Origin: an uncultured bacterium
Lineage (GTDB): Bacteria > Planctomycetota > UBA1135 > GCA-002686595
Reading direction: 5' to 3'
NCBI GenBank assembly: GCA_938075305.1
Contig: CALJGV010000007.1
Coordinates: forward strand, 62,001 to 126,000
Length of the DNA: 64,000 nucleotides
Part shown: in pieces, positions 49,797 to 50,665 of the stretch
How positions within the stretch are numbered: the first letter of the stretch is position 1
Layout of the letters: every line of letters starts with the position of its first letter
Made by a program: the position numbers and the translations under genes
The notes under the pieces: model-generated
What the model was told of the DNA's origin: nothing
Seen by the model: only the letters and a program-made list of their open reading frames with translations
Database searches by the model: none

Positions 49797-49806
49797 GCGT
49801 GACGAG

Positions 49807-49840
49807 GCGCGGCGGGCGCCCCGAAGGGGCGCAGCCGCGC
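49807..49840 (-). terminator. Two-part hairpin directly after the selenoprotein gene
   Basis: Outer arms GCGCGGC/GCCGCGC and inner arms GCGCCCC/GGGGCGC around a GAA loop, with a two-base and a one-base bulge between them. It begins seven bases past the stop codon of the minus-strand gene. Confidence 0.65.
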
Positions 49841-49846
49841 GGGCGA

Positions 49847-50494
49847 TCAGAGGATGTAGGTCTTGTCCTTCTTGATGCTCTTCATCTTCACCTTGTGCTT
49901 CGCGAGGGCCGCCTTCAGCTTCTCCTCGTCGAGCTTCTCGTCCTTCTTCATCTGGATGATGATCTCGGGACCGGCGTAGACATCGGCGACGTTGTCCCCG
50001 AGGGACTTCATGAGGGTCTCACGGACCCTCCCGGCGGTGTCGCTTCACGTCAGGCCGGGCGTCTTGGCGACGTAGGCCGCCTTGGCGCGCTCGGACTCGC
50101 GGCTGGTGAGGGAGACCCACTTGAGGCGCTGCTTCTCGATGGCGGCCTTGAGGGCCTTCTCATCCACCTTGACTCCCTTCTTGAGGGTGAAGCTGGCGCG
50201 GGTCCCGCTCCAGAAGATGCGTTCGATGTCGTCGTCCTCGTCGAGGACGCTGAGGAAGGCCGCACGGGCCTTCTTGCCTGCGCTTCAGCCCTTGCCGTCG
50301 GCGTGGAGGGTCCAGACCGTGATCTTGTCCTCCTTCGCCTTCTTCTTGGAGTCGCCTTGGACGGCGGGGCCGTCGTCGCCCTTCTGGGCGGTCGGCGTCG
50401 AGACGGGGCCGTCCTGGGGCAGCATGGCCGAGGCGCTGTACGCGATCCCGGCGGCGGCCACGAGGAGGGTTCCCTGAACCAGTTTTGTGATCAT
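49847..50494 (-). CDS. Exported tandem HMA-like protein with two in-frame UGA (selenocysteine) codons
   Basis: Read through two in-frame TGA codons, this gives 215 residues: a signal peptide (about 1-23, ending SASA), a Lys/Gln-rich linker, and two related domains (about 57-130 and 141-215). Each has beta-alpha-beta-beta-alpha-beta order as in heavy-metal-associated (HMA/MerP) domains. The TGA codons encode residue 70 (GKG-U-SAGKKA) and residue 150 (GLT-U-SDTAGRV), both at the first Cys position of the HMA GMTCxxC loop; the second Cys is Lys or Thr. The rest of the protein has no Cys. Each TGA is followed by AGC and a 7-bp SECIS-like hairpin. The family and function are unknown; metal binding or redox outside the cytoplasm is inferred. 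ATG 50494 is chosen for the signal peptide. No Shine-Dalgarno is visible. Confidence 0.85.
50012..50030 (-). promoter_or_regulatory. SECIS-like hairpin after the second UGA
   Basis: On the mRNA, GAGGGUC, loop CGUGA, GACCCUC: a 7-bp perfect stem whose loop begins 21 bases after the UGA at 50045-50047, with G as the second loop base. Bacterial SECIS elements typically have a 3-14-base apical loop with a G in the first two positions, 16-37 bases after UGA. Confidence 0.8.
50255..50273 (-). promoter_or_regulatory. SECIS-like hairpin after the first UGA
   Basis: On the mRNA, GAAGGCC, loop CGUGC, GGCCUUC: a 7-bp perfect stem whose loop begins 18 bases after the UGA at 50285-50287, with G as second loop base. 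It shares the loop start CGUG with the other hairpin although the stems differ. Confidence 0.82.
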
Positions 50495-50665
50495 GAGTTG
50501 AGCGGTTGCTGAGCGCCGGCCAGGAAGCGGCAGGCGGACTTCTATTACCACCCATGGTTCGCCCGAGCGGAACCGTGTGGACGAGAGGGTTCTGTGAAAA
50601 CCTCGCGGCGCGACAGACCGCCATGGGGAATATGCCCGTATGGCGTCAGGGCGCCGCAGGCCGAC

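Follow-up and report, generated by a model that had tools for sequence, protein, structure and literature searches.

Several of the closest described systems are selenoproteins, that is, proteins containing selenocysteine (Sec; U in sequence motifs), with links to metal binding or transport. Table 1 of a 2026 review (PMC13188914) lists 119 prokaryotic selenoprotein families and subfamilies, including a UxxU "Metal-binding protein (putative mercuric reductase)" (NF041115), a UxxC cation-transporting ATPase, and a MerT-like protein. A Sec-containing "Mercuric transport protein MerP" is entered with 2 sequences, and with no motif given, in a table of an ocean metagenome study (PMC2398784). The gene described here lies on the minus strand of a 64,000-nucleotide stretch of DNA, referred to below as the window, from an uncultured bacterium of the Planctomycetota (GTDB lineage UBA1135, GCA-002686595; GenBank assembly GCA_938075305.1, contig CALJGV010000007.1, positions 62,001 to 126,000). 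Its sequence and that of its homologues make it nearly certain that the gene is intact and encodes a selenoprotein with two Sec residues, one in each of two domains that resemble the HMA domains of metallochaperones. The features of the locus, including two hairpins that resemble selenocysteine insertion sequences (SECIS), are as follows.

49847..50494, minus strand: gene for the two-Sec protein, 215 residues with TGA read as Sec at 70 and 150; stop codon TGA at 49847-49849
50426..50494, minus strand: likely signal for export, spanning about residues 1-23, assigned by inspection of the translation
50090..50326, minus strand: first HMA-like domain, residues 57-135, from a structure model
50285..50287, minus strand: TGA1, read as Sec 70, in the first domain; TGA in 31 of 31 aligned homologues
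50255..50273, minus strand: SECIS-like hairpin 1, 7 bp, loop CGUGC; nucleotides 15-33 counted from the T of TGA1
49859..50089, minus strand: second HMA-like domain, residues 136-212, from the model and matches to ZntA, CopZ, Atx1, and MerP
50045..50047, minus strand: TGA2, read as Sec 150, in the second domain; TGA in 31 of 31 aligned homologues
50012..50030, minus strand: SECIS-like hairpin 2, 7 bp, loop CGUGA; nucleotides 18-36 counted from the T of TGA2

The original prediction was of a selenoprotein hidden in a frame that is broken only by two TGA codons and remains coding-like throughout, with the two codons at matching positions in a pair of repeated domains. The coordinates and codons of this frame, from the ATG at 50494 to the TGA at 49847-49849, are exact, and the G+C content of third codon positions is 0.93 before, 0.94 between, and 0.95 after the two TGAs. 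In the structure model each Sec sits between the first strand and the first helix of its domain (strand 57-66, U70, and helix 72-83; strand 139-144, U150, and helix 151-165). The read-through translation of the window gene contains no cysteine.

Homologues were sought by comparing whole genomes with the read-through protein. Within the family (81 genomes), the gene was found in 27 genomes at 28 places, and all 28 show exactly two TGA codons and no other stop. Within the class (154 genomes), it was found in 34 genomes at 35 places, 34 of them with two TGA codons and one, in genome G092 (locus L122), with a single TGA. In the G092 gene Sec is present in the first domain only, and the sequence that follows, including its domain, is without Sec. 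A profile search of 392 genomes of the phylum gave matches in 45. The 31 of the 35 class places that were available as loci were aligned; they are between 98% and 23% identical to the window protein. Every one of the 31 has TGA in the two Sec columns, the only other invariant residues being M1 and R158, and no TAA, TAG, or frameshift interrupts any of the genes. The expectation that two TGAs at matching positions would not arise by chance is thus borne out. The AGC codon noted after both TGAs is present in the window, but it does not hold across the homologues, in which it follows TGA1 in 22 of 31 and TGA2 in 9 of 31. A replacement of Sec by Cys, the usual supporting sign of a selenoprotein although not a required one, was not found among the 31 aligned sequences. 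The possibility that the final TGA encodes a third Sec was considered and rejected; the stop codon varies among the 31 homologues (TAG in 15, TGA in 13, and TAA in 3), and the reading frame of close relatives shifts beyond the final TGA.

The genome of the window (4.4 Mb, 90% complete) contains all four components of the selenocysteine machinery that had been proposed as a check: selA (460 bits), selB (327 bits), and selD (318 bits), each above its curated cutoff, and a tRNA-Sec with a score of 70.5 against RF01852 (cutoff, 47). The same tRNA was called as tRNA-SeC with anticodon tca by ARAGORN. A comparison of the presence and absence of the gene with that of the machinery is uninformative, since almost every genome of the class (145 of 154) has selA; it was found in 31 of the 34 genomes that carry the gene, and the remaining three are 64 to 80% complete. 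The selD gene itself (L018:101-1160) has one in-frame TGA, in an N-terminal CAGUAAK stretch, and judging by this sequence the SelD of the genome is likely to be a selenoprotein as well.

A hairpin with GU in its loop lies behind each TGA. The stems begin 12 to 15 nucleotides 3' of the TGAs, and the loop GU falls at nucleotides 23-24 for TGA1 and 26-27 for TGA2. The SECIS element of Escherichia coli fdhF has an essential GU at 23-24. Each hairpin is the best fold of its 39-nucleotide piece, and hairpin 2 is not the best fold in a 51-nucleotide piece; the folding-energy z-scores of both hairpins are not significant, the energies being ordinary for the composition. For hairpin 2, 96.3% of alignment cells were paired, five of the seven pairs were changed on both sides, and none of 500 shuffles was as good. 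For hairpin 1, which was assessed in 30 sequences with locus L055 omitted, 83.3% of cells were paired and three of the seven pairs were changed on both sides, the three outer pairs being broken in 10, 10, and 15 sequences; the covariation score was reached by none of 500 shuffles and the pair count by 93 of 500. L055 has no arginine at the loop position behind TGA1. The arginine codon of the loop is CGT in 29 of 30 sequences at TGA1 (CGG in one) and in 31 of 31 at TGA2. Together, 60 of the 61 loop arginine codons are CGT, compared to 14 of 224 other arginine codons in the same genes. When a hairpin was defined by a fixed rule (loop starting at nucleotide 22 or 25, GU in the loop, and at least 4 pairs), one was found behind 60 of 62 TGAs versus 6 of 5,664 codons not adjoining a TGA. 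The loops are so constrained that both the codon and the amino acid are fixed at the arginine, an evident case in which an RNA signal shapes a protein.

In close relatives, the regions 3' of the TGAs show the strongest constraint within the gene. In 6 of the 10 pairs among five close relatives, the ratio of nonsynonymous to synonymous substitution rates (dN/dS) was 0 to 0.05 between the TGAs and 0 to 0.06 behind TGA2, compared to 0.14 to 1.98 before TGA1. For eight more distant pairs, the corresponding ranges were 0.11 to 0.85, 0.09 to 0.67, and 0.07 to 0.87, and in two of these pairs (L046/L052 and L048/L049) the segment before TGA1 was the more constrained. Taken together, the machinery, the conservation of the TGAs in all 31 homologues, and the covarying hairpins support the selenoprotein reading, and the checks proposed to refute it were run and do not.

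The model consists of two βαββαβ ferredoxin-like domains, each carrying its Sec in the loop between β1 and α1. According to the model and alignment, the Sec position corresponds to the first metal-binding Cys of the HMA CxxC motif. The CxxC pair itself is absent, as Sec occupies the first place and the second place is not Cys in the window protein. Among the 31 homologues, the second-ligand position holds G, S, A, or Q at +3 in domain 1 and A, S, C, or I at +4 in domain 2 (Cys in 1 of 31), and 12 of the 31 have no Cys at all from 12 residues before the first Sec onward. The Pfam HMA model (PF00403) did not match the window protein at E values up to 1. Six of the 31 homologues matched it at E values up to 0.1 (best, 2.2e-6), and the second domain gave profile matches to CopA and MerP sequences. 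In a profile-profile comparison, 167 columns of the 31-member profile aligned with 99.1% probability to the tandem Sec-containing HMA proteins at loci L076, L077, and L081. These three proteins each match Pfam HMA twice (E values of 1e-21 or better), and the tandem domain with a lone Sec is therefore considered a divergent HMA-like form. Sequence comparison thus points to common descent with HMA proteins; the class assigned is HMA-like, not membership in PF00403.

The phylum holds many Sec variants of HMA domains. Of 24 distant loci that were read (L062 to L085), 13 have the same plan as the window protein, with two domains that hold a single Sec apiece, although in 7 of these 13 the end was placed at a TGA by choice. 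The tandem HMA proteins carry UxxxC in both domains at L076 and UxxC followed by UxxxC at L077. UxxxU is found at L079, L080, and L082, UxxU at L084, and one lone Sec at L078 and L083; single Pfam HMA matches were obtained at L079, L080, L083, and L084. The gene at L081 (1492-2196), a tandem HMA protein with UxxxU in both domains, has four in-frame TGAs, and a relative at L069 (1495-2298, minus strand) has three domains, the middle one with two consecutive TGA codons (UU). Short frames with paired TGAs (such as UGEDU, FLUAGUG, and UTTGIGUG) lie near the HMA genes of L084 and L085, and these are possibly further selenoproteins. On contig C27 of the window's own genome (L124:1486-1818, minus strand), a lipoprotein-like frame of 111 residues encodes a single HMA domain with the motif GMTUGAGC, and a hairpin with a GGUCU loop stands behind its TGA. 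This Sec protein is the only Pfam HMA match that was found in the window's genome.

These comparisons suggest how the protein may be made and what it may do. By analogy with the known bacterial pathway, SelB carrying Sec-tRNA would recognize the hairpin behind each TGA and insert Sec. The N-terminal signal would export the chain, and part of the homologue family may be lipid anchored; a lipobox-like motif was matched in the N-terminal region of 12 of the 31 homologues. Each domain is predicted to adopt the ferredoxin-like fold of HMA metallochaperones, with Sec in the loop of the first Cys. As Cys is conserved at no position, each Sec has just one conserved chalcogen partner within the chain, namely the other Sec, an arrangement that fits either a metal site with two selenolates, which is preferred given the HMA ancestry, or a diselenide, its main rival. 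With the second Cys gone from either domain, and none elsewhere in the window protein, the two selenolates would most likely share one site between the domains, where Hg(II), Cu(I), Ag(I), or a similar soft ion would be bound. The combined proposal, that the TGAs are read as Sec by SelA, SelB, SelD, and tRNA-Sec and that the protein, predicted to be exported, holds a soft metal with both Sec residues, is judged somewhat probable. Taken alone, metal binding by both Sec residues is given even chances. More tentatively, the protein may be a Cys-free exported metal trap with one bis-selenolate site, at the obligately selenium-based end of a Planctomycetota series that runs from CxxC through UxxC or UxxxC and UxxxU to a lone U in each of two domains.

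The strongest competitor is a redox role, in which the two Sec residues of an exported reductase or peroxide scavenger would form an interdomain diselenide or an Se-S bond with a partner thiol. Neither domain has a second metal ligand, and the window protein offers no chalcogen residue besides its Sec residues, which suits a diselenide; moreover, redox roles are attributed to the majority of known selenoproteins (PMC13188914). However, the predicted fold is HMA-like rather than thioredoxin-like, HMA domains that Pfam recognizes in relatives from the phylum retain UxxC, UxxxC, UxxU, or UxxxU at the metal site, and the sole Pfam HMA match of the window's genome is the Sec protein with GMTUGAGC. 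A redox function is accordingly regarded as possible, with odds clearly below even. It seems unlikely that the protein mainly carries or stores selenium outside the cytoplasm. Such a function has been proposed for mammalian selenoprotein P, and a small exported protein with two Sec residues would suit it, as would the four TGA codons reached by the relative at L081. However, the Sec of each domain occupies a conserved functional site and is never replaced or shifted in 31 sequences, which would be needless for a store. Reading of TGA as another amino acid, through a reassigned code or a suppressor, would likewise keep the frame open, but it is highly improbable given that TGA ends 13 of the 31 homologues, that TGG is used 29 times in the same genes, that the tRNA with anticodon tca is tRNA-Sec by its RF01852 score, and that hairpins with CGU loops follow the TGAs. 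A pseudogene with two nonsense mutations, or a sequencing error, has only the interrupted frame in its favor and is effectively dismissed by the presence of the same two TGAs in every one of 31 independent sequences and by the constraint behind the TGAs in close relatives. Equally negligible is an antisense gene of 237 residues (49799-50512) that would render the TGAs meaningless; this frame is uninterrupted in the window, but just 12 of the 31 homologues keep the same register open, and codon-level constraint lies on the sense strand.

The surroundings of the gene gave no functional clue, as no open reading frame (ORF) family was common to more than six of 38 loci (290 ORFs within 6 kb). One divergently placed neighbor recurs in 5 loci within the genus and is presumably a pyruvate phosphate dikinase-like gene. 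A strong GC-rich hairpin without a T run (49800-49850; z-score, -3.56) immediately 3' of the final TGA is perhaps a terminator.

The tandem lone-Sec family is absent from Table 1 of PMC13188914 and did not turn up in literature searches that included passages of PMC2398784 and PMC4807772. Searches of protein databases, in which sensitivity was bounded by the need for shared 5-residue words, gave no match among 1,150 candidates with the window protein as the query and none among the 8,000 best candidates with the 31-member alignment. The family is missing from these databases because ordinary gene callers split the gene at its TGAs. Among described proteins, those of the UxxU_metal_bind family (NF041115) resemble the window protein in having two Sec residues per chain, with Sec placed at the metal site of a domain of HMA type. 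However, NF041115 is a 74-position, single-domain model with UxxU, whereas the window protein has a lone Sec per domain, has lost the second ligand, and has no UxxU. The NF041115 model matched 10 of the 31 homologues weakly (best E value, 0.0015), and its 95-bit cutoff was reached by none of 10 proteins tested and in none of 384 genomes. MerP and CopZ/Atx1 proteins (PF00403, TIGR02052, and NF047957) share the βαββαβ fold and the first-ligand position, but they have CxxC with two Cys residues per domain, whereas the window protein lacks both Cys and a match to Pfam HMA. The Sec-containing MerP entered in the ocean metagenome table (PMC2398784) may belong to the same family as the window protein. 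The MerT/CopZ fusion-like selenoprotein (NF045683) and the UxxC ATPase, as entered in Table 1 of PMC13188914, also place Sec in metal-transport proteins, but these are membrane transporters with one Sec and a different architecture; the NF045683 model matches the HMA part of the proteins at L076, L077, L079, L080, L081, and L084. Double selenoproteins such as MbdU, MduS, FTR, and others in the same table also have two Sec residues per bacterial chain and differ in fold or motif, a distinction drawn here from their names. Set beside these systems, the window gene adds a two-Sec family of which no Cys version has been seen, and the variety of Sec-containing HMA proteins in the Planctomycetota makes it possible to test why selenium rather than sulfur would be needed at a metal-binding site.
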